A stretch of 40,314 nucleotides of DNA from an uncultured Alistipes sp. (lineage in GTDB: Bacteria > Bacteroidota > Bacteroidia > Bacteroidales > Rikenellaceae), in the NCBI GenBank assembly GCA_944321955.1, contig CALUNG010000017.1:1-40314 (forward strand). The letters run 5' to 3'. A model generated the notes under the pieces. That model did no database searches and was not told the DNA's origin. It worked only from the letters and a program-made list of their open reading frames with translations. Made by a program: the position numbers and the translations under genes. Shown piece after piece: positions 2,773 through 17,939 of this stretch; the first letter of the stretch is position 1, and the number at the start of each line of letters is the position of its first letter.

Positions 2773-2801
2773 TCGTGCCTTCAGTTGGCTGCGATCGTAA
2801 A

Positions 2802-4406
2802 CTACAACTTCGGTCCAGCCTCAACAAGAGCCTTGCCGGCCTCGTTGGTGGTGTACTTGTTGAAGTTCTTGATGAAGCGGCCGGCCAGATCTTCTGCCTT
2901 CCTGGTCCACTCTGCGGAATCTGCATAGGTGTCGCGAGGATCGAGGATCTTGGGATCTACGCCCGGAAGCTCGGTCGGAACCTCGAAGTTGAAGATAGGA
3001 ATGTGCTTGGTCGGAGCCTTCTCGATCGAACCGTCGAGGATGGCGTCGATGATACCACGCGTATCCTTGATCGAAATACGCTTGCCGGTACCGTTCCAAC
3101 CGGTGTTTACAAGGTATGCCTTGGCACCGCTCTTCTCCATGCGCTTAACCAGCTCTTCGGCATACTTGGTCGGGTGGAGTTCGAGGAACGCCTGTCCGAA
3201 GCAAGCCGAGAAGGTCGGCGTAGGCTCGGTGATACCGCGCTCGGTACCAGCGAGTTTTGCGGTGAAGCCCGAAAGGAAGTAGTACTTCGTCTGCTCCGGA
3301 GTCAGAATCGATACCGGGGGCAGTACGCCGAATGCATCGGCCGACAGGAAGATTACGTTCTTGGCTGCGGGTGCTGCCGATACGGGCTTAACGATGTTCT
3401 TGATGTGGTAGATCGGGTAAGATACACGGGTGTTCTCCGTTACCGACTTGTCGTCGAAGTCGATCTTGCCGGTCTTCTCGTCTACGGTTACGTTCTCCAG
3501 AAGGGCGTCACGCTTGATGGCGTTGTAGATATCGGGCTCCGACTCCTTGTCGAGCTTGATAACCTTGGCGTAGCAGCCACCCTCGAAGTTGAAGATACCG
3601 TTGTCGTCCCATCCGTGCTCGTCGTCGCCGATAAGCTCACGCTTCGGGTCGGTCGAAAGGGTCGTCTTGCCGGTTCCGGACAGTCCGAAGAAGATGGCCG
3701 TCTCACCCTTGCTGTTGGTGTTGGCCGAGCAGTGCATCGATGCGATGCCCTTCAACGGCAGATAGTAGTTCATCATCGAGAACATACCCTTCTTCATCTC
3801 ACCGCCGTACCAGGTGTTGATGATAACCTGCTCGCGCGAAGTGATGTTGAAGACTACGGCCGTCTCCGAATTGAGACCCAGCTCCTTGTAGTTCTCAACC
3901 TTGGCCTTCGATGCGTTGTATACAACGAAATCCGGCTCGAAGTCCTTCAGCTCCTCCTCGGTCGGACGGATGAACATGTTCTTTACGAAGTGTGCCTGCC
4001 ATGCTACCTCCATGATGAAGCGTACGGCCATGCGGGTATCCTTGTTGGCTCCGCAGAATCCGTCGACAACGAACAGACGCTTGTTCGAGAGCTCCTTCTG
4101 TGCGATGGCCTTTACAGCCTCCCACGTCTTCTCCGATACGGGTTTGTTGTCGTTCTTGTACTCCTCGGAAGTCCACCAGATGGTATCCTTCGAGTTCTCG
4201 TCCATGACGATGAACTTGTCCTTGGGCGAACGGCCGGTATATACGCCGGTCATGACGTTAACGGCGCCAAGCTCCGTTACAACACCCTTCTCATAGCCCG
4301 TAAGGCCCTCTTTCGTCTCCTCCTTGAACAGCTGCTCGTAGGAAGGATTGTACACCACCTCGGTCGTGCCCGTGATGCCGTACTTCGTTAAATCAATCTT
4401 TGACAT
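2802..4406 (-). CDS. pckA: Phosphoenolpyruvate carboxykinase (ATP)
   Basis: This enzyme interconverts oxaloacetate plus ATP with PEP, CO2 and ADP. In gut Bacteroidetes it usually runs in the CO2-fixing direction toward succinate fermentation (family knowledge). The 534-aa length is typical of the ATP-dependent class. Visible motifs are [10 protein letters not shown] near residue 55, the kinase P-loop [13 protein letters not shown] with Lys247, the metal-binding IGDDEHGW just after it, and ENTRVSYP near residue 330. It is encoded alone, with its own promoter and a strong terminator. Its codon use is noticeably restricted, as expected for a highly expressed gene. Confidence 0.98.
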
Positions 4407-4504
4407 AATTAAATATGTTTTTAATTAACCTCTGCCTTTCATTTGTCGGCCGGCTGCATTTTTCGCGCCAACCGTCGAGACTTCAGTCTCTCTTTTTCAC
4501 GCTG

Positions 4505-4512
4505 CAAAGATA
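4505..4512 (-). promoter_or_regulatory. Promoter -7 element of pckA
   Basis: On the minus strand this reads TATCTTTG, a perfect match to TAnnTTTG. The resulting leader is about 90-95 nt and ends in an AT-rich stretch before the ATG. Confidence 0.65.
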
Positions 4513-4728
4513 TGTCTTTATTTTGGTTTGTGAAAAAAATAACAATGAATTTTAATATTTTTTACTATCGTTTTTTTCGGCTGCAATGCTGCACACTGAT
4601 ATTCAACGGCCGGCCGTCGTTTTTATTGTGCGGCGGCGACCGAACCACGACGGATGCCCGAAACGGCAGACAACTACCGCCCGAGAGCCGCAAAAGCGGC
4701 TTTTCGACCGACGCAGGCCTCACAAAAA

Positions 4729-4760
4729 TTTGACTATGCGATCGGTTTGCACTATCTTTG
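4729..4760 (+). promoter_or_regulatory. Promoter of the nadB-prfC operon
   Basis: TTTG at 4729-4732 and TATCTTTG at 4753-4760 are 20 bp apart, an ideal Bacteroidetes promoter. The leader would be about 20 nt. Confidence 0.75.
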
Positions 4761-4786
4761 TGGCGCAAAACAATACTTTGTCTGAT

Positions 4787-6361
4787 ATGAAAACCGATTT
4801 TCTTGTCATCGGCTCCGGCGCTGCGGGTCTGGGTTTCGCCCTCAAGGCCGCCCGTTACGGTCATGTCACCCTCATCACCAAGGGCGAGCTGGCCGAATGC
4901 AATACCGACTACGCACAGGGTGGAATCTGCTCGGTTACATACCCGCCCGACACCTTCGAGAAACATATCGAGGATACGCTCGTATGCGGTGCCGGCAAGT
5001 GCGACCGCAAAGCCGTTGAGCTCGTGGTAAGACGTGCCCCCGAGGCCGCACGCGACCTGATCGAGTGGGGAGTAAACTTCGACAAGACGCCCGACGGACG
5101 TTTCGACCTCCACCGCGAGGGCGGCCACTCCGAACACCGCATCCTGCACCACAGCGACCTCACCGGCGCCGAAATCGAACGAGCCCTCATCGAACGGGCA
5201 CGCAACGACAAGAACATAACGATACTCGAGCACCACTTCGCCATAGACCTGCTCACGCAGCACCACCTGGGCGAGATCGTAACGCGCCACACGCGCGGTG
5301 TGGCCTGCTTCGGCGCATACGTGCTCAACACCGGCACCAACGACATCATGACAATCCTGGCCAAGTTCACCATCGTGGCGGCCGGAGGTTGCGGAAACAT
5401 CTACGCCACGACGACCAACCCCGTGGTGGCAACGGGCGACGGCATAGCCATGTGCCACCGCGCCAAGGCGTTCACCCGCAACATGCAGTTCATACAGTTC
5501 CACCCCACGTCGCTCTACCATCCGGGCGAACGTCCCTCGTTCCTCATAACCGAGGCGATGCGCGGGTACGGCGGCATACTGCGACTGCAGAACGGTCAGG
5601 AGTTCATGGACAAATACCACCCGATGCGTTCGCTCGCCCCGCGCGACGTCGTGGCCCGTTCGATCGACCACGAGCTGAAGATCCGCGGCGAGGAGTTCGT
5701 CTATCTCGACGTCACGCACATGCCCGCAGACGAGACCCGGCACCACTTCCCCAACATCTACGAGAAGTGCAAGTCGATCGGCATCGACATCACGCGCGAC
5801 ATGATCCCCGTATGTCCGGCTGCGCACTACTGCTGCGGCGGCGTCACGGTGGACTACAACGGCGAAAGCTCGGTTAAGCGTCTCTACGTTCTGGGCGAAA
5901 GTTCGTGCACGGGACTGCACGGAGCAAACCGTCTGGCTTCGAACTCGCTCTCCGAGGCATTCGTCTACGCCGATCAGGCCGCACGCCACGCCTCGCAGTT
6001 CCTCGACAAGGTAGACTTCCAGGAGGGAATACCCGACTGGGACTTCGAAGGTACGGCCGCAGCCGAGGAGATGGTACTCGTCATGCAGGACCGCAAGGAG
6101 CTGCAGAACATCATGTCGAACTATGTGGGCATCGTACGTTCGAACCTGCGTCTCGACCGCGCATTCAAGCGTCTGGCAGTCATCTGGCAGGAGACCGAGG
6201 AGCTCTACAACCGCACGAAGCCCTGCCGCGAGCTCTGCGAGCTGCGCAACATGATCACGGTGGCATACCTTACAATAAAACAGGCACGCGAATGCAAGGA
6301 GTCCGTCGGCCTGCACTATACGATAGACTATCCGCCCGTTAAGAAACAAAACGACAGATGA
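4787..6361 (+). CDS. nadB: L-aspartate oxidase
   Basis: This FAD enzyme oxidises L-aspartate to iminoaspartate, the first step of de novo NAD synthesis (with quinolinate synthase NadA, not in the window). The 524-aa protein begins with the FAD-binding motif [12 protein letters not shown] (residues 5-16). It then shows [23 protein letters not shown], a second FAD segment [22 protein letters not shown], and the catalytic-arginine segment [12 protein letters not shown] near residue 285. The [11 protein letters not shown] and [18 protein letters not shown] motifs follow. All are standard for NadB. The ATG at 4787 puts the Rossmann motif at the usual distance, and upstream in-frame codons lie before the promoter. 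The stop overlaps the prfC start (ATGA), so the two are co-transcribed. Confidence 0.96.
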
Positions 6362-7941
6362 CCCTCAAGGAAGAGATTGCACGCAGGCGAACGTTCGCCA
6401 TCATTTCACACCCGGATGCCGGTAAAACCACGCTGACCGAAAAGCTGCTGCTCTTCGGCGGTGCGATACACGTCGCCGGAGCCGTAAAAAGCAACAAGAT
6501 ACGCAAGAGCGCAACGTCGGACTTCATGGAGATCGAACGGCAGCGCGGAATTTCGGTAGCCACGTCGGTCATGGGATTCGACTACGAAGGCGTCAAGATC
6601 AACATTCTCGACACGCCGGGCCACGAGGATTTCGCCGAAGACACGTACCGTACCCTTACTGCCGTCGATTCGGTCATAATCGTCATCGACGGCGCCAAGG
6701 GTGTCGAGACGCAGACACGCAAGCTGATGAACGTATGCCGCATGCGCAATACACCGGTGATGGTCTTCATCAACAAGCTCGACCGTCCGTGCAAGGATCC
6801 GTTCGACCTGCTGGACGAGGTGGAGCGCGAACTGCAGATCAGGGTACGCCCGCTGGCGTTCCCCATATCGAGCGGATCGACCTTCAAGGGCGTCTACAAC
6901 CTCTACGAGCACAACCTGTCGCTCTTCACCAGCGACGAACGGCAGGTGGCTACGGCCTCGACCGTCGAGATCGACGACATAGCCTCGTCCGAACTCGACG
7001 CTCACGTCGGCGAACGCTATGCCGCACAGTTGCGCAACGACGTGGAGCTTGTCGAGGGCGTTTACGACCCGTTCGACCGCGACGCCTATCTGCGCGGTGA
7101 ACTCGCTCCGGTCTTCTTCGGATCGGCCGTGAACAACTTCGGCGTGCGCGAGCTGCTCGAGTGCTTCATACGCATAGCTCCATCGCCGCGTCCGACGGCT
7201 ACCGAAACCCGCATGGTCGAACCCGACGAGCCCAAGATGACGGGATTCATATTCAAGATACACGCCAACATGGATCCCAACCACCGCGACCGCATCGCCT
7301 TCATGAAGGTCTGCTCCGGTGTCTTCGAGCGCAACCACAACTATCTGCACGTCCGCAGCGGCAAACAGCTGAAGTTCTCGTCGCCCACGGCATTCATGGC
7401 CGAGAAGAAGTCGGTGATAGACTTCGCGTATCCGGGCGACATCGTCGGCCTGCACGACACCGGCACCTTCAAGATAGGCGACACCTTCACCGAAGGCGAA
7501 AAACTCAAGTTCACGGGCATACCGTCGTTCTCGCCGGAGCTGTTCCGATACATCGAGAATGCCGACCCGATGAAGTTCAAGCAGCTGGCCAAGGGCATCG
7601 ACCAGCTGATGGACGAGGGCGTGGCACAGCTCTTCACCTCGTGTCTCAACGGCCGGCGCATCATCGGCACGGTCGGAGCCCTGCAGTTCGAGGTCATCGA
7701 GTACCGTCTCGAGCACGAATACGGAGCCAAGTGCCGCTGGGAACCAATATCTATATACAAGGCGTGCTGGATCGAGAGCGACAATGCCGAACAGCTGGCC
7801 GACTTCAAGAAGCGAAAGCATACGAACATGGCCGTGGACAAACACGGTCGCGACGTATTCCTCGCCGACACGAGCTATGCGCTCACGCTGGCCCAGGAGA
7901 ACTTCAAGGATATACGGTTCAAGTTCACGTCGGAATTTTAA
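6358..7941 (+). CDS. prfC: Peptide chain release factor 3
   Basis: RF3 is the GTPase that removes RF1/RF2 from the ribosome after termination. The 527-aa length is typical. G motifs are readable: SHPDAGKT (residues 17-24), the switch region [18 protein letters not shown] and NKLDRP. After the G domain come the domain II segment [17 protein letters not shown] and a C-terminal domain with [16 protein letters not shown], characteristic of RF3 rather than EF-G. The ATG overlaps the nadB stop by four bases, implying translational coupling. A strong hairpin terminator follows. Confidence 0.97.
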
Positions 7942-8005: not shown

Positions 8006-8290
8006 TATTACGAGACGTTCGACGATCGGTACGCGCGATCGGTTGTTCAGCGCCATGCGCAACGCCTCGCGCTGCAGCATCAGCTCGGAACGCACGACGC
8101 TCGACTGTACGTGCACGTAGAGCGTGCCGCGCTGAAGCCTTATCTGTGTGGTCATCTCGGCCACCCTGTCGCCGACCACCTCGCGCCACGTATCGGGCAG
8201 GTAACCCTCGGCTATCCTTGCCGCTATGTTGGGACTGCGGAAGAGTTCGTCGAACATCTCGCCGACAAGTTTCGGATCGGTACGTTTCAT
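8000..8290 (-). CDS. DUF721 (DciA-like) protein
   Basis: This 96-aa protein has the pattern of the DUF721 family: an N-terminal helix with GEMFDELF, the conserved W in LPDTWREVVGDRVAEMT, and a strand-helix-strand LYVHVQSSVVRSELMLQREALRMALN. DciA, the characterised member of this family, helps load the replicative helicase DnaB. Some Bacteroidetes members are short, like this one. Its start codon overlaps the recF stop (ATGA on the minus strand), so it is co-transcribed and probably translationally coupled with recF. That fits a role in replication or repair, but its actual function here is inference. Confidence 0.85.
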   Translation of the reverse strand: MKRTDPKLVGEMFDELFRSPNIAARIAEGYLPDTWREVVGDRVAEMTTQIRLQRGTLYVHVQSSVVRSELMLQREALRMALNNRSRVPIVERLVIK

Positions 8291-9375
8291 TCTCTTATGC
8301 TGCCGTTTTCAACGCAAAACAACCTGTATGAACAACCCGCACGGTCCAGCAACGACCGCAGACGGTGCTCGTTGCAGTCGGTGATGACAATCTGACCGAA
8401 GGCATCACCCGCAACCAGACGGATGAGCTGTTCGACACGCTGCTCGTCGAGCTTGTCGCAGACATCGTCCAGAAGAAGTATGGGGTTGTCGTGCCGGTTT
8501 TCGGCTATGATGGAATACTGCGCCAGCTTGAGGGCTATGAGGAACGACTTCTGCTGACCCTGCGAACCGTATTTGCGCAGCGGCATTCCGCCGATGGTGA
8601 AGACCAGGTCGTCGCGGTGTATGCCCGAGGTGGTAAACTGGTTGATGATGTCGCGCTGGCGGTTCGCCGCAAGCAGCTCCGACAGAGGCTTCTCGTTAAG
8701 CTCCGAACGGTAACGCAGGCTCACCGTCTCGCGGTCGAGCGACAGACGGGCGTAGAAGTCGGCAACCACGGGCTGCAAACGTTCGACGATGGCCGCACGA
8801 CGTTCGTGTATCTTCGTGCCGTGGGCGGCAAGCTGGGCATCGTATACCTCGAGCATCGACTCGTCGCTCGATACCTTCAGGAAGCGGTTGCGCTCGGCCA
8901 GCACGGCATTGTAGCGCATCAGTGCATCGAGGTAGTCATGGTCGAGCTGCGAGATGAAGCCGTTGACATAGCGGCGCCGTTCATCGGCCGCATCGCTTAT
9001 GAGCATCGTATCCGACGGCGCCACGATGACAACCGGAATGAGTCCCACGTGGTCCGCCAGACGGTCGTAGGCCTTGCCGTTGCGTTTGAGCACCTTGCCG
9101 TTGCCGCGCGCAAAGGTGCATACGATACGTTCGTGCCGCCCTTCGCCCGTCACGTAGTCGCCGTCAAGCGTAAAGAAGTTCTCGCCCATGCGGACGCACT
9201 GGCCGTCGGTCATGCCGAAGGCCGACTTGCCCACAGACAGGTAATAGAAGGCATCGATGAAGTTGGTCTTGCCCGCGCCGTTGTCCCCCACGAAACAGTT
9301 GATCCCCTCGCCCGGCGAGAGCTCCTCCCGGGCGATATTCTTGAAGTTTATGAGCGACAGTCGGTTGAGATACAT
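8287..9375 (-). CDS. recF: DNA replication/repair protein RecF
   Basis: RecF is an SMC-like ATPase that, with RecO and RecR, helps load RecA at single-strand gaps. The 362-aa length is normal. Visible features are the N-terminal MYLNRLSLINFKN, Walker A GDNGAGKTNFIDA (about residues 30-42), the ABC signature-like GSQGQQKSFLIALKLAQ (about residue 267) and Walker B ILLLDDVCDKLDEQR (about residue 297). It is the first gene of a two-gene minus-strand operon with the DUF721 gene and is divergent from the TPR/ribH-like pair. Confidence 0.97.
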   Translation of the reverse strand: MYLNRLSLINFKNIAREELSPGEGINCFVGDNGAGKTNFIDAFYYLSVGKSAFGMTDGQCVRMGENFFTLDGDYVTGEGRHERIVCTFARGNGKVLKRNGKAYDRLADHVGLIPVVIVAPSDTMLISDAADERRRYVNGFISQLDHDYLDALMRYNAVLAERNRFLKVSSDESMLEVYDAQLAAHGTKIHERRAAIVERLQPVVADFYARLSLDRETVSLRYRSELNEKPLSELLAANRQRDIINQFTTSGIHRDDLVFTIGGMPLRKYGSQGQQKSFLIALKLAQYSIIAENRHDNPILLLDDVCDKLDEQRVEQLIRLVAGDAFGQIVITDCNEHRLRSLLDRAGCSYRLFCVENGSIRE

Positions 9376-9594: not shown

Positions 9595-10284
9595 ATGGCA
9601 AAAAAAGATGTTACGCCGCAGGACGCCGCTATCGGCGAGGCTATCAACAAGACCGAATCGTTTTTCGAGAAAAACAGCAAGGGTGTAATCTGGGCCCTCG
9701 TAGTGATTATCGTAATAGCAGCCGCCATTTTCGGATACCGTAAGCTGGTTGCCGAGCCGCGCGTCGAGAAGGCCGCAGACATGATCGCCGAAGCGCAATA
9801 CCGCTTCGAGCAGGCCGATCCCGACTACGAACTCGCCCTCAACGGCGACGAGAACGGCGCCGGATTCCTCGATGTAATCGAGAAGTACGGTTCGACCCCC
9901 TCGGGCAACCTTGCAAAACACTATGCTGGCGTCTGCTACCTGCACCTGGGCGACCTCGATGCCGCCGCAAAATATCTGGCCAAATACTCGCCCGTAAAGG
10001 GTCTGCCCGGAGAGATCGTCAACGCCCAGAACCTCGGACTGCAGGGCGACATAGCCGTCGAGCAGGACAAACTCGATGAGGCCGTGAAGTTCTACCACAA
10101 GGCCGTAAAGGCTTCGGACAACCTCTACACCGCTCCGCTCTACCTACGCAAGGCCGGACTGGCTCTGCAGGCTCAGGGCAAGAACGATGAGGCCGTAGTC
10201 CTCTTCGAGAAGATCCTGGCTCTCTATCCCTCGTCGATCGAGGCCCGCGAGGCCGAGAAACTCATCGGCGCCGAGAACCGTTAA
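9595..10284 (+). CDS. Membrane-anchored tetratricopeptide repeat protein
   Basis: The product is 229 aa. After about 32 polar residues there is one membrane segment, VIWALVVIIVIAAAIFGYRK (about residues 33-52), followed by TPR-type helical pairs. Readable repeats include GNLAKHYAGVCYLHLGDLDAAAKYL and APLYLRKAGLALQAQGKNDEAVVLFEKIL, each split across helices with the usual small and aromatic positions. The arrangement resembles YfgM-like ancillary proteins that sit at the inner membrane with TPRs outside, but a specific role is not assigned. It is the first gene of a two-gene unit with the ribH-like gene 26 bp downstream. The same adjacency with ribH is familiar in Bacteroidetes. Confidence 0.85.
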   Translation: MAKKDVTPQDAAIGEAINKTESFFEKNSKGVIWALVVIIVIAAAIFGYRKLVAEPRVEKAADMIAEAQYRFEQADPDYELALNGDENGAGFLDVIEKYGSTPSGNLAKHYAGVCYLHLGDLDAAAKYLAKYSPVKGLPGEIVNAQNLGLQGDIAVEQDKLDEAVKFYHKAVKASDNLYTAPLYLRKAGLALQAQGKNDEAVVLFEKILALYPSSIEAREAEKLIGAENR

Positions 10285-10310: not shown

Positions 10311-10769
10311 ATGGAAAAACGCCGCAGGCCGTCGACCTCGGATTTCGACGACAACTCCGTTACGGACAAGATGTTCGGCATACTGTCGGCCGGCAGCGAC
10401 GACAACGACATGGAGATCGTATCGTCGGTGGTGGGCAACCTCATGGCCGAAGGGTGTCTCGAACAGAACCTGCGGATACGAAACGTCCCGAGCGATGCTG
10501 ACATTCCAATGGGGGTGCAGTTCTTCGCCGAATACACCGACGTCGACGCCGTGATCGTGATAACCTTCGGAGGGAAGGAGTTGCCCGAATATATCCTCGA
10601 GGCCGTCATGAGGCTGCAGCTGCACTGGAACATGCCGGTGGTATTCGCCGGGAACATGGCCGACTACTGGAAAGTGCACAAGCAGGCCATCGAGATGGTT
10701 CTGCTCCAGTACGAGATGGAGGCCGATTCGGCCGACTCGGACAATCCCGACCGCCGCTCGATAAACTGA
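10311..10769 (+). CDS. Lumazine-synthase-fold protein lacking catalytic residues (RibH-like pseudoenzyme)
   Basis: The product is 152 aa and matches the RibH (6,7-dimethyl-8-ribityllumazine synthase) fold in order: MFGILSAGSDDND for the first strand and loop, the helix EIVSSVVGNLMAEGC, NLRIRNVPSDADIP, VDAVIVITFGG, and the helix plus strand LHWNMPVVFAGN. A C-terminal helix KQAIEMVLLQYE resembles the AIEMANLL end of RibH. The true enzyme has VPGxFE where this has VPSDAD, and GxTxHFDYV with the catalytic His where this has KELPEY, with about six residues deleted. The GTKAGNKG phosphate segment is also gone. A charged 20-residue N-terminal extension (MEKRRRPSTS...) is added. Its position after a TPR gene beside recF is the usual ribH locus, so this is probably the resident ribH that lost catalysis. 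Whether it still forms the RibH pentamer or shell is unknown. Confidence 0.72.
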   Translation: MEKRRRPSTSDFDDNSVTDKMFGILSAGSDDNDMEIVSSVVGNLMAEGCLEQNLRIRNVPSDADIPMGVQFFAEYTDVDAVIVITFGGKELPEYILEAVMRLQLHWNMPVVFAGNMADYWKVHKQAIEMVLLQYEMEADSADSDNPDRRSIN

Positions 10770-13688: not shown

Positions 13689-16600
13689 ATGAACAACACC
13701 AAATTTACGCCCGATTACCTCTTTGAGGTGAGCTGGGAGGTCTGCAACAAGGTCGGCGGAATACACACCGTCATAGCTTCGAAAGCTAAAACGACATGCA
13801 AGAAATTCGGTGACCACTATATAGTCATCGGCCCCGATTTCGCCGGCGAAGCCGCCAGTTCGGAATTCGAGGAAGATGCCAACATGCTCAAACAATGGCG
13901 TCAGGCCCTCTACGACGACGGTGTGAGGGTACGTATCGGACGCTGGAAGATCGAAGGTTCGCCCATTGCCATTCTGGCCGACTTCACGTCGCTCTTCTCG
14001 CAGAAGGACGAGATTCTCAAGCGTCTGTGGGAAAGCTACCACGTGGACTCGATATCGGGTCAGTGGGACTACGTCGAGCCGGTGCTCTTCGGCCGTATCG
14101 CCGGCATAATCATCGAGTCGTTCGCGGAGACATTCTGCTCGTCGACCGACAAGGTTGCGGCACACTTCCACGAATGGATGACCGCATCGGGAGGTCTCTA
14201 TCTGCGTGAGAACGCCCCCTACATCGCCACGATATTCACCACGCATGCGACGGTCATCGGACGCTGCATCGCCGGTAACCGTCTGCCGCTCTACAACAAC
14301 CTCACGAAGTTCAACGCCGACGAGCTGGCACACCAGTTCAACGTCACGGCAAAGCACTCGATCGAGAAGACCGCGGCCAACTATCACGACGCATTCCTGA
14401 CCGTCAGCGACATTACGGCCAACGAGTGCAAATACCTGCTCGGACACGAAGTCGACGGCATCACACCCAACGGTTTCGAAAACGACTTCGTATGGAAGGG
14501 CAAGGAATACGACGACAAGCGCAATGAGGCCCGCCGCACGCTCATCGACGTGGCTGAAGCCTGCCTGGGCTGCAAGTTCGGGAAGGAACCGCTGATAATC
14601 GGCACCAGCGGCCGCTATGAGTTCCGCAACAAGGGTATCGACATCTTCCTCGAGGCCCTCAAGCAGCTCGAGTCGTCGGGCAACCTCGACCGTGAGATTC
14701 TGGTCTACCTGATGATACCGGCAGGAATAACCGGAGCGCGGCTCGACCTGCAGGCGCATCTTGCCGACAACTCGAAGCCCATCGACCCGGCACAATACAA
14801 ATACACGACCCACACGCTCGAGAACGCTACGTGGGACCAGATATCACAGACCATCAACGGCAGCGTGCTGGACAACCCCGCATCGAAGGTCAAGGTCGTA
14901 TTCGTTCCCACATACCTCAACGGCAACGACGGCATCTTCAACAAGAGCTACTACGAGCTGCTGGTAGGCATGGATCTTACCGTATTCGCATCGTACTACG
15001 AACCGTGGGGATATACCCCGCTCGAGTCGATCGCATTCTCGATACCGACAGTCACCTCGTCGCTGGCCGGATTCGGCGTCTGGATCAAGAAATTCGGTTA
15101 CAACAAGGGCATCACGGTCATCGACCGCAACGACTTCAACGACAAGGATGCCATAGCCGCCATCGCAGACAAGATACTCGATTTCTCGCGTCTGACCGAG
15201 GAAGAGGTCAAGAAGGCACGCAAGGAGGCGCTCGAGGCATCGAAACACGCCTTGTGGTCGAATCTCTTCGAGAACTACGAAAACGCCTACTCGCAGGCCG
15301 TCGAGAATTCGATCACACGTACCAACCGTGCAATTCTCGAGGACGGAGGCTCGTCGAACGAACAGATAAACTTCGTGCGCCAGCAGCTCATATCGGAGCA
15401 GCCCACATGGCAGCGCATGATGGTCGAGAAGAGCCTGCCGGCATGCCTGCATCCGCTCGAGGAGCTCTCGCGCAACCTGTGGTGGAGCTGGAACCCCGGC
15501 GGACGCGACCTCTTCGAATATGCCGACAAGGATCTGTGGGTAGAGGTAGACCGCAACCCAATCGTTCTGCTCGACAAGCTGTCGGTTGACCGAATAAAGG
15601 AGCTCGAGCAGGATGCTACGTTCCTCAACATGCTCGATTCGGTATACAACAACTACAAGGCCTACATGTCCGAAAAGCCCGACCCCAAGAGCGCAAGGAT
15701 AGCCTACTTCTCGATGGAGTACGGTCTGCACTCGTCGCTGAAGATCTACTCGGGCGGTCTGGGCATTCTTGCCGGCGACTACCTCAAGGAAGCCTCCGAC
15801 AAGAACATACCGATGGTGGCCGTGGGTCTGCTCTACCGTTACGGATACTTCACGCAGCGTCTCTCCGCCCAGGGTGCACAGGAGGTCGAGTACGAAGCAC
15901 AGAACTTCTTCAAGCTTCCGATATCGCCCGTACGTGACAACGACGGCAACTGGGTAACCGTGCAGGTGGCATTCCCGGGTCGTACGCTTTCTGCCCGCGT
16001 ATGGAAGTGCCAGGTAGGCCGTACGGATCTGTTCCTGCTCGACGCCGACTACGAGGCCAACCTCGCCGAAGACCGTCAGGTTACCCACCACCTCTACGGA
16101 GGCGACTGGGAAAACCGACTCAAGCAGGAGCTGCTGCTGGGTATCGGCGGTATCCGCGCCCTCGTGAAGATGGGTATCGAACAGGACGTATACCACTGCA
16201 ACGAGGGTCATGCCGCATTCATCGGACTGGAGCGCATCGCCAACCTTATCGAGCGTCAGAATCTCTCGTTCTCCGAGGCTCTCGAGGTGGTACGTTCGTC
16301 GTCGCTCTTCACGACGCACACGCCCGTGCCGGCCGGTCACGACGCATTCCCCGAGTCGATGATCCGTCAGTACATGTCGCACTTCCCCGACGTGCTCAAG
16401 ATCACATGGGAACAGTTCATCAACCTGGGCAAGACGAACCCCAACGACCCCAACCAGAAGTTCTCGATGTCGGTGCTGGCCTGCAACCTTTCGCAGGAGG
16501 TCAACGGCGTATCGTGGCTCCACGGCGAGGTGTCGAAGGAGATCCTCGGAAACATCTGGCCCGGATACTTCAAGAACGAACTCCACATAAGCTACGTCAC

Positions 16601-17939
16601 CAACGGCGTGCACTTCCCGACATGGACCGCCTCGAACCTGAGACGCCTCTACGCGAAGTACTTCCCCGAAGGATTCGACGGCCACGTATACAACATACCC
16701 GAGTGGCAGAAGGTATACAACATCTCCGACGACGAACTGTGGCTCGAGCGCATGTTCCTCAAGAACAAGCTCATAAAGATGATCCGCAGGCGTTACAGCG
16801 ACCCCACGCAGGTACAGCTCGAATCGCCGCGCCAGATGGTGCAGATCTCCGAAGGCATCAAGCCCGACGTGCTGACCATCGGTTTCGCCCGCCGGTTCGC
16901 GACCTACAAGCGTGCTTATCTGCTCTTCACCAATCTCGAGCGCCTCTCGGCCATCGTCAACAACAAGGAGCACCCCGTACAGTTCATCTTCGCCGGAAAG
17001 GCGCACCCCAACGACAAACCGGGTCAGGATCTGATCAAGCGCATAGTCGAGGTGGCTGCCAAACCGGAGTTCGTCGGCAAGATCATCTTCCTGCAGAACT
17101 ACGACATGGAGCTTGCCCGCCGCATGGTTCAGGGCGTAGACGTATGGCTCAACACGCCTACCCGTCCGCTCGAGGCTTCGGGTACGTCGGGCGAAAAGTG
17201 CGTGATGAACGGCGTACTGCAGTTCTCGGTACTCGACGGCTGGTGGGTCGAGGGATACAAGGAGGGTGCCGGCTGGGCACTGCCCATGAAGCGCACCTTC
17301 ACGGACCAGAGCTATCAGGACGAACTCGACGCCGAGATGATCTACAACACCATCGAGGAGGAGATCGTTCCCAAGTACTACAACCGCGGTTCGGACGGCA
17401 TACCCCACGAGTGGGTGGCATCCATCAAGAAGTGTATCGCCGACATAGCATCGCACTTTACGACCAACCGCATGCTCATCGACTACGAAGACCGTTTCTA
17501 CAACAAACTGACGGCACGCAAGAAGGAACTCGTGGCCGACAACTACATGCAGGCCCGCGAGATCGCCGCTTGGAAACGCAAGGTTTCGGCCGCATGGAAC
17601 AACGTGAAACTCGTGGACGTCAAACGTGCCTGCATCGATACCGAGGCCATCATGGTCGGCGAGCCGTACCACTTCGAGGTTACGCTCGACATAGCCAACC
17701 TCCAGCCCAAGGACATAGGCGTGGAGCTCGTCGTGGCAAAACAGCTCGAATACGGCCAAAGCACCCATGTGGACACTTCGGTCGAACTGCAGGTCAGCAA
17801 GGCCGTCGGCAGTCTGGTAACATACACGCTCGACTATGTGCCGGAACGTACGGGAATGTTCGACGTGGCACTGCGAATCTTCCCCAAGAATCCGAAGCTG
17901 CCGCACAGAATGGACTTCGCTCTGGTAAAATGGGCATAA
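13689..17939 (+). CDS. Glycogen synthase (GT3 type) fused to alpha-glucan phosphorylase
   Basis: One 1416-aa frame carries two enzymes with opposite roles. Residues 1 to about 550 resemble the GT3 (eukaryotic-type, UDP-glucose) glycogen synthase: LFEVSWEVCNKVGGIHTVI, HFHEWM, TTHATVIGR, TPNGF, and the C-terminal sugar-nucleotide segment YYEPWGYTPLES. After a linker rich in polar residues, residues from about 585 form an alpha-glucan phosphorylase of the short DUF3417-GT35 type: LEELSRNLWWSWNP, AYFSMEYGLH, YSGGLGILAGDYLKEASD, NEGHAAF, and FATYKRAYLLF. The PLP-lysine segment EASGTSGEKCVMNGV contains Lys1170. Both active sites look intact, and no stop or frameshift is visible at the junction. A terminator follows, so it forms its own transcript ahead of the debranching/GT4/GH57 genes. 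Confidence 0.92.
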   Translation: MNNTKFTPDYLFEVSWEVCNKVGGIHTVIASKAKTTCKKFGDHYIVIGPDFAGEAASSEFEEDANMLKQWRQALYDDGVRVRIGRWKIEGSPIAILADFTSLFSQKDEILKRLWESYHVDSISGQWDYVEPVLFGRIAGIIIESFAETFCSSTDKVAAHFHEWMTASGGLYLRENAPYIATIFTTHATVIGRCIAGNRLPLYNNLTKFNADELAHQFNVTAKHSIEKTAANYHDAFLTVSDITANECKYLLGHEVDGITPNGFENDFVWKGKEYDDKRNEARRTLIDVAEACLGCKFGKEPLIIGTSGRYEFRNKGIDIFLEALKQLESSGNLDREILVYLMIPAGITGARLDLQAHLADNSKPIDPAQYKYTTHTLENATWDQISQTINGSVLDNPASKVKVVFVPTYLNGNDGIFNKSYYELLVGMDLTVFASYYEPWGYTPLESIAFSIPTVTSSLAGFGVWIKKFGYNKGITVIDRNDFNDKDAIAAIADKILDFSRLTEEEVKKARKEALEASKHALWSNLFENYENAYSQAVENSITRTNRAILEDGGSSNEQINFVRQQLISEQPTWQRMMVEKSLPACLHPLEELSRNLWWSWNPGGRDLFEYADKDLWVEVDRNPIVLLDKLSVDRIKELEQDATFLNMLDSVYNNYKAYMSEKPDPKSARIAYFSMEYGLHSSLKIYSGGLGILAGDYLKEASDKNIPMVAVGLLYRYGYFTQRLSAQGAQEVEYEAQNFFKLPISPVRDNDGNWVTVQVAFPGRTLSARVWKCQVGRTDLFLLDADYEANLAEDRQVTHHLYGGDWENRLKQELLLGIGGIRALVKMGIEQDVYHCNEGHAAFIGLERIANLIERQNLSFSEALEVVRSSSLFTTHTPVPAGHDAFPESMIRQYMSHFPDVLKITWEQFINLGKTNPNDPNQKFSMSVLACNLSQEVNGVSWLHGEVSKEILGNIWPGYFKNELHISYVTNGVHFPTWTASNLRRLYAKYFPEGFDGHVYNIPEWQKVYNISDDELWLERMFLKNKLIKMIRRRYSDPTQVQLESPRQMVQISEGIKPDVLTIGFARRFATYKRAYLLFTNLERLSAIVNNKEHPVQFIFAGKAHPNDKPGQDLIKRIVEVAAKPEFVGKIIFLQNYDMELARRMVQGVDVWLNTPTRPLEASGTSGEKCVMNGVLQFSVLDGWWVEGYKEGAGWALPMKRTFTDQSYQDELDAEMIYNTIEEEIVPKYYNRGSDGIPHEWVASIKKCIADIASHFTTNRMLIDYEDRFYNKLTARKKELVADNYMQAREIAAWKRKVSAAWNNVKLVDVKRACIDTEAIMVGEPYHFEVTLDIANLQPKDIGVELVVAKQLEYGQSTHVDTSVELQVSKAVGSLVTYTLDYVPERTGMFDVALRIFPKNPKLPHRMDFALVKWA

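Follow-up and report, generated by a model that had tools for sequence, protein, structure and literature searches.

The gene at 10311..10769 (plus strand) of the window, by which we mean the whole 40,314-nucleotide stretch of DNA from an uncultured Alistipes sp. analysed here, encodes a 152 aa protein of the lumazine synthase (RibH) lineage that appears from its sequence to be catalytically dead. We consider it fairly probable that this protein is a lumazine synthase pseudoenzyme, derived from a RibH ancestor with a second, non-catalytic role that would be the only role left after loss of the riboflavin pathway. The observations are homology to lumazine synthase, loss of the active site, absence of the pathway genes, recurrence of the degenerate state on a tree, purifying selection and a split between two sets of loops.

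Lineage, locus and active site

The ORF is present and intact. Its product has a sole Pfam match, to PF00885 (DMRL_synthase), with an E value of 8.4e-6 and 26.2 bits against a cut-off of 26.7, and is below the curated cut-off of TIGR00114 (21.1 bits vs 84.6). Searched alone against the PDB, it gave weak matches (best E 0.016), of which 26 of the 28 listed were named lumazine synthase. A profile of 49 degenerate proteins found lumazine synthases with a best E of 2.8e-12, and the sole other names at E <0.8 in that search were the designed cage components I53_dn5A and I53-50B, which we take to be derived from lumazine synthase. PF00885 itself matched 42 of the 49 proteins at E <= 0.1. When four proteins of the window clade were compared using hhalign with the canonical RibH of the family (Rikenellaceae), the probability was 99.9 %, and the other degenerate groups reached 99.7-100 % in profile-profile comparison with the same canonical proteins. 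An Alistipes MAG protein (Rikenellaceae) is 49 % identical to the window protein and a Bacteroidales MAG protein is 38 % identical. Judged from these comparisons, the homology of the window protein to lumazine synthase is well above chance, and profile similarity and the orthologous locus together point to common descent. The first-pass annotation, made from the letters of the window, had assigned the gene to the lumazine synthase lineage at the native ribH locus, and the PF00885 match, the PDB profile search, the hhalign result and the synteny all agree with that assignment.

The degenerate ribH starts 26 bp after the stop codon of a gene for a TPR protein (9595..10284, plus strand), which has a TPR_21 match and, by eye, a hydrophobic stretch near its N-terminus. 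On the other strand, recF (8287..9375, minus strand), a conserved neighbour on which the tree described below is based, and dciA adjoin this pair. The order of a TPR gene then ribH near recF, which had been recognized at first reading, is present here, and most loci, whether canonical or degenerate, have TPR-ribH next to recF and dciA. Further along the window, an ORF of 1416 aa at 13689-17939 (plus strand) carries Glycogen_syn at its N-terminus, followed by DUF3417 and Phosphorylase, and is a synthase-phosphorylase fusion.

The active site was compared in a 96-row alignment of 58 degenerate and 38 canonical sequences, from which the duplicates L001, L034, L003, L062, L081 and L082 were left out, together with L045, later found to be intact. 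The long frame of L055 was trimmed to its RibH start, and loci L064 and L084 gave no match when the RibH frames were read (L084 was found in the later tail check). According to the alignment and a column tally, VPSDAD (10485..10502, plus strand) replaces the substrate-binding VPGTFE in the window protein, and KELPEY (10575..10592, plus strand) stands where the catalytic-His loop GETRHFDY should be, with the His absent. Residues are given in lumazine synthase numbering, in which His88 is catalytic and Arg127 and Lys135 are phosphate-binding. The catalytic His, Arg127 and Lys135 are each found in 0/58 degenerates vs 38/38 canonical rows; the window protein also lacks the His, and one degenerate aligns an Arg at the position of Lys135. 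Neither the GNKG segment nor VPGx(F/W)E is present in any of the 58 degenerates. The changes to the VPGxFE and catalytic-His segments and the loss of the GNKG segment, all described in the first-pass annotation, are seen in the alignment.

Active-site decay is not uniform among the degenerates. The Gly and Glu of VPGxxE, a pair not kept by the window group, are present in 12/58 rows, which are the degenerates of a second genus, g20 (L085-L096), and one further row keeps the Gly. Some His lies within four columns of the catalytic position in 7/58. The parent fold is that of an enzyme, and the retained Gly and Glu, with three polar residues (T76, D79 and Q133) that are invariant in 49 sequences, could be taken to indicate that the fold has been re-used with a rebuilt active site. 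However, none of the invariant residues falls within the former active-site loops, and these loops are the least conserved part of the domain. T, D and Q at the invariant positions are, moreover, already common in canonical RibH. A new enzyme is accordingly given only a very slim chance here.

The N-terminal arm (residues 1-20; 10311..10370, plus strand) had been described as an added basic extension. It is not new, because the canonical RibH proteins of the family carry an N-terminal arm of about 20 residues, of which the window arm is a diverged form in the alignment. The degenerates have a degraded form of this arm and lack, by deletion, the segment between strand 4 and helix 5. As these parts are degraded or missing, a 60-subunit shell is less likely for degenerate RibH, to judge from the alignment; a pentamer is possible.

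Riboflavin genes and recurrence in the Rikenellaceae

In the window genome (G000; 92.17 % complete), a search of the whole genome found no second ribH, 10311-10769 being the only match. There were also no matches to ribBA (PF00926), to ribE, encoding riboflavin synthase (PF00677), or to the reductase domain of RibD (PF01872), and no FMN riboswitch was found. The genome keeps the FAD synthetase domain of RibF. TIGR00326 (RibD) gave three matches (best 4.1e-13), none of those listed being over the cut-off. However, this model matches all 150 genomes of the survey described below, above its cut-off in only 26, and is therefore uninformative. PF01872 was used instead on 16 genomes; it was over its cut-off in 6/6 genomes with a canonical ribH and in 2/10 without one (G089 and G108; frames of 229-234 aa), and gave one match below it, in G038. 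As ribBA, ribE and the RibD reductase domain were not found, the window genome should depend on imported riboflavin, and the organism is a predicted riboflavin auxotroph. An incomplete assembly could hide single genes, yet the pattern repeats in many genomes. Of the two options named at first reading, riboflavin from elsewhere or a second ribH, the searches agree with the former. The window of this predicted riboflavin auxotroph also holds a flavoprotein ORF (4586-6361, plus strand) with FAD_binding_2 and a fumarate reductase C-terminal domain.

Recurrence was surveyed within the family in an even sample of 150 genomes from a larger group, including 62 of the window's genus and 23 of g20. A canonical ribH was found in 30 genomes of the window's genus and in seven of g20, and these are the same 30 and seven genomes that have ribBA. 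The same 37 have ribE, which also gave one marginal match in G121. Both the canonical ribH and ribBA are missing from the other 48 genomes of the two genera, and a degenerate ribH is found in 42 of these 48, 34 detected with the Pfam model and 8 more with a profile of degenerates. The six without a counted degenerate copy are G104, G108, G121, G090, G109 and G111. G109 (77 % complete) was counted as lacking a copy, its one weak match (E 1.8e-4) being in a 408-aa frame that contains a stop, as was G111 (59 % complete), where the match has an E value of 0.46 in a 563-aa frame. In G104, G108 and G121 (L172, L171 and L170, respectively), predicted auxotrophs that together make a natural knock-out set, the TPR gene is kept, ribH is gone and other genes follow directly, and the role of the degenerate protein would therefore be dispensable in some species. 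G107 has two degenerate ribH matches, on contigs 188 and 292; this genome is 81 % complete with 5 % contamination, and the pair is either a duplicate or a mixed assembly.

Copies in the other genera of the family are canonical, and many of them show the same synteny; the canonical form is for this reason likely to be the ancestral state. In a set of 295 genomes from the order, nearly all of them outside the family, 240 had a match above the cut-off, one (the window's own genome) was below it and 54 had no match. The degenerate-RibH profile had no match in the 20 listed of these 54. The TPR gene was looked for in 11 of these 20 ribH-less genomes of other families and found in 10 (L174-L183), and in 9/10 the next gene after it is, by eye, one for methionyl-tRNA formyltransferase, with no ribH between. 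Hence the place of ribH showed no remnant of the gene in these genomes of other families, whereas in the window's genus and g20 a remnant usually persists.

The degenerate state was mapped on a RecF tree of 42 rows (44 loci with a complete RecF and a ribH, minus two duplicates). It needs three changes (bootstrap range 3-4), none of 500 label shuffles gave a number as low, and well supported branches force two changes. The first group contains the window, L002 and five others; the second and third are ten rows of the window's genus and six rows of g20, both with moderate support. A fourth separate group may be represented by G102. The edges of the deletions in the alignment differ between the degenerate groups, which fits separate decay.

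The native copy of G102 is still beside its TPR gene and lacks the catalytic residues, but the opposite face (described below) and a tail, DRRNLN, are kept. On contig 3 (L081, about 2797-6385), the same genome has a ribD-ribE-ribBA-ribH group, whose ribH is of a motif-bearing, tail-less type. This group is near two ORFs that by eye resemble tyrosine recombinases, two FMN riboswitch matches below the gathering score are upstream of it, and it is possible that G102 regained riboflavin synthesis by transfer. That the dead native copy is retained beside a fully motif-bearing RibH is in keeping with a role outside riboflavin synthesis; this natural control is a single genome.

G102 is also relevant to the proposal that the degenerate protein binds flavin or lumazine and acts in storage or sensing, aiding an auxotroph with imported flavin. 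Such a function would suit predicted riboflavin auxotrophs, in which the protein is found, and lumazine synthases bind ligands of this type. However, the copy kept in G102 coexists with a separate rib operon, and most of the ligand-binding motifs of lumazine synthase (W/F22-N, the HFD loop, Arg127 and Lys135) are among the parts lost. We regard this proposal as decidedly unlikely. RF00050 matches were found in 12 genomes, 10 of which are predicted auxotrophs of the window's genus and g20, and the riboswitch may therefore mark flavin uptake. In L064 (G145), a strong FMN riboswitch (118.5 bits) at approximately 1501-1626 is just upstream of a long minus-strand ORF that resembles, by eye, a TonB-linked outer membrane receptor.

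Selection and the parts retained

Pairwise dN/dS was calculated by the Nei-Gojobori method, uncorrected for codon bias, from 50 degenerate and 58 canonical sequences obtained with a stricter threshold, using pairs of 55 %-99.5 % identity. The window gene and its nearest relative, at 86 % identity, give a dN of 0.084, a dS of 0.96 and a ratio of 0.088; the TPR gene of the same genome pair gave 0.128. In the 25 pairs of lowest synonymous difference, the ratio is 0.024-0.311 for degenerates (25 of 147 pairs) and 0.008-0.238 for canonical genes (25 of 1463 pairs). The gene is kept as a protein and tends to be under less constraint than that of the active enzyme. A check of dN/dS in relatives had been suggested in the first-pass annotation, on the grounds that a new role would be supported if the riboflavin pathway were missing and the gene strongly conserved. 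What was found is an absence of the pathway genes with an intact ORF, an orthologous locus and purifying selection.

These values also argue against a decaying pseudogene, a gene whose purpose was lost with the pathway and which merely awaits deletion. Such a fate would account for the three auxotrophs of the genus that lost the gene cleanly, and no remnant was detected, at the sensitivity used, in 20 genomes of other families without a ribH match. However, in addition to the low dN/dS, there are no internal stops in the degenerate matches of the 150-genome Pfam survey, the one listed match of a further search to report a stop (G176, L045) has it upstream of the start of an intact frame, and retention recurs across deep divergence. 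Simple decay is therefore rated as extremely improbable.

In an alpha/beta fold of the RibH kind, the active site is built from the loops that follow the strands, and the opposite side holds the loops that precede them. The window protein retains two of the latter, AEYTDVD before strand 3 (10527..10547) and WNMP before strand 4 (10626..10637), both on the plus strand and both placed opposite the active site from fold topology. The two loop sets would, on the same basis, form two faces. Conservation of the faces was compared in 17 degenerates sharing <60 % identity by counting the cells that match the canonical majority residue. The share of matching cells is 8 % for the catalytic-face loops, 61 % for the opposite-face loops and 35 % for the remainder of the domain. 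The split is found in each group (catalytic vs opposite face: g20, 11 %/47 %; window clade, 6 %/61 %; G102, 20 %/71 %; other members of the window's genus, 6 %/63 %), rows absent from the RecF tree having been put into groups by sequence likeness. Motif-bearing RibH proteins from other families of the order show the reverse split, with 61 % for the catalytic face and 32 % for the opposite face in 30 rows, which are not a random sample but 29 proteins from the 30 best-scoring loci plus the operon RibH of G102. Six of the other-family proteins look by eye like the native type, and for these the values are 77 % and 38 %. Because RibH elsewhere does without the opposite-face residues, folding alone seems not to demand them, though folding, and not binding, might account for part of their retention. 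Of the 15 sequences in a later check, 11 have the AExTxVD pattern.

Two further retained elements are close to the C-terminus. LQYEM (10704..10718, plus strand) ends the last helix, and its Gln and Met are nearly invariant. The tail, DRRSIN (10749..10766, plus strand), has a hydrophobic-Asn/Ser end that is shared by 34/38 canonical RibH proteins of the family and 56/58 degenerates. As the last two residues were misaligned in the column scores, the tail was counted from the C-terminal end instead; among the final 15 positions of the 17 diverged degenerates, the last one varies least. No such ending was found in the TPR protein of the same loci, and, judged by the last residues, the tail extension is not in the 29 proteins from the best-scoring loci of other families. 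The tail was checked in 15 sequences, 13 of them new as two had been seen before, and 9/13 carry it, two of the four exceptions ending like L100. With four exceptions in 13, the tail is lost in places, which weakens it as a universal mark.

Some TPR domains bind C-terminal peptides, and the tail might dock on the TPR neighbour, so that RibH would tether or multimerize the TPR protein. The genes are adjacent in most loci and here are separated by only the 26 bp noted above. However, in L087 and L089 they are 2-3 kb apart, and no TPR gene was found within the stretch fetched for L091, L095 and L096. The TPR protein also persists without ribH. In a comparison of 98 ribH-bearing loci (46 degenerate and 52 canonical, a set to which the window's TPR frame does not belong) with four ribH-less genomes, the TPR protein of the latter is unchanged in 97 % of the cells at 28 conserved positions. 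Coupling of the TPR neighbour to RibH was rejected as a finding on the basis that conserved TPR positions are not lost in ribH-less loci, and a TPR partner is for the same reason not claimed. The adjacent TPR protein is retained as a candidate partner of the degenerate RibH, and docking of the tail on it is considered unlikely.

A proposed second role for RibH

The reading we prefer, a pseudoenzyme that preserves a second role of RibH, can be set out as follows. The ancestor would have been a normal RibH, encoded at its native locus, with a second role of a non-catalytic kind that resided in the face opposite the active site and in the C-terminal tail specific to the family. In a lineage that lost the riboflavin pathway and became dependent on imported flavin, the catalytic face would have been released from selection and the catalytic loops would have been deleted. 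Selection on the opposite face and the tail would have continued, leaving a smaller binding or scaffold protein. The second role would then predate the loss of catalysis, and the retained face and tail would bind a putative partner. Whether this applies to the whole family, such that its RibH is bifunctional, with a vitamin-independent interaction surface and a docking tail, and several losses of the pathway gave rise to convergent pseudoenzymes with one conserved putative partner, is in our estimation evenly balanced.

The earlier suggestion that catalysis was lost and the gene was kept, possibly as a scaffold, shell or binding protein, is upheld as regards loss and retention by the missing motifs, the intact ORF and the purifying selection. 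Among the functions it named, a scaffold or binding protein is favoured, while the shell is disfavoured by the degraded arm and deleted segment.

Relative to RibH as defined by PF00885 and TIGR00114, the window gene shares the sequence lineage, the locus, the family-specific residues of the opposite face and the tail. It differs in having no catalytic His, VPGxFE, Arg127, Lys135 or GNKG, in a genome where the riboflavin pathway was not found. Metabolic enzymes are known to have given rise to a general class of pseudoenzymes that are retained for binding or regulation, and the window gene resembles these in that lineage and locus are kept, the catalytic residues are gone and purifying selection is seen. 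The difference is that here the pathway itself has also been lost, and that the loss recurred.

In PMC11748540, riboflavin genes, ribH among them, are reported to be a hallmark of one Alistipes group, which already hints at a patchy presence of the riboflavin genes. In part of PMC4403557, all the Bacteroidetes in the set examined are predicted to make riboflavin. In the open-licence PMC papers, judged by their listings, we found nothing on a dead RibH, and nothing was found there that combines lumazine synthase, Bacteroid and tetratricopeptide. As far as checked, this is a pseudoenzyme lineage of a known family that is new as a variant.

The enzymes of a lost pathway are expected to go too, but here a dead form outlives the pathway, apparently more than once. 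Some degenerate ribH genes score above the Pfam cut-off, and these could therefore be counted as ribH in vitamin surveys. The surviving residues point to where a hidden second function may lie. A moonlighting role for RibH is testable, as the family offers natural controls in which the protein is active, dead, dead beside a motif-bearing copy, or absent.
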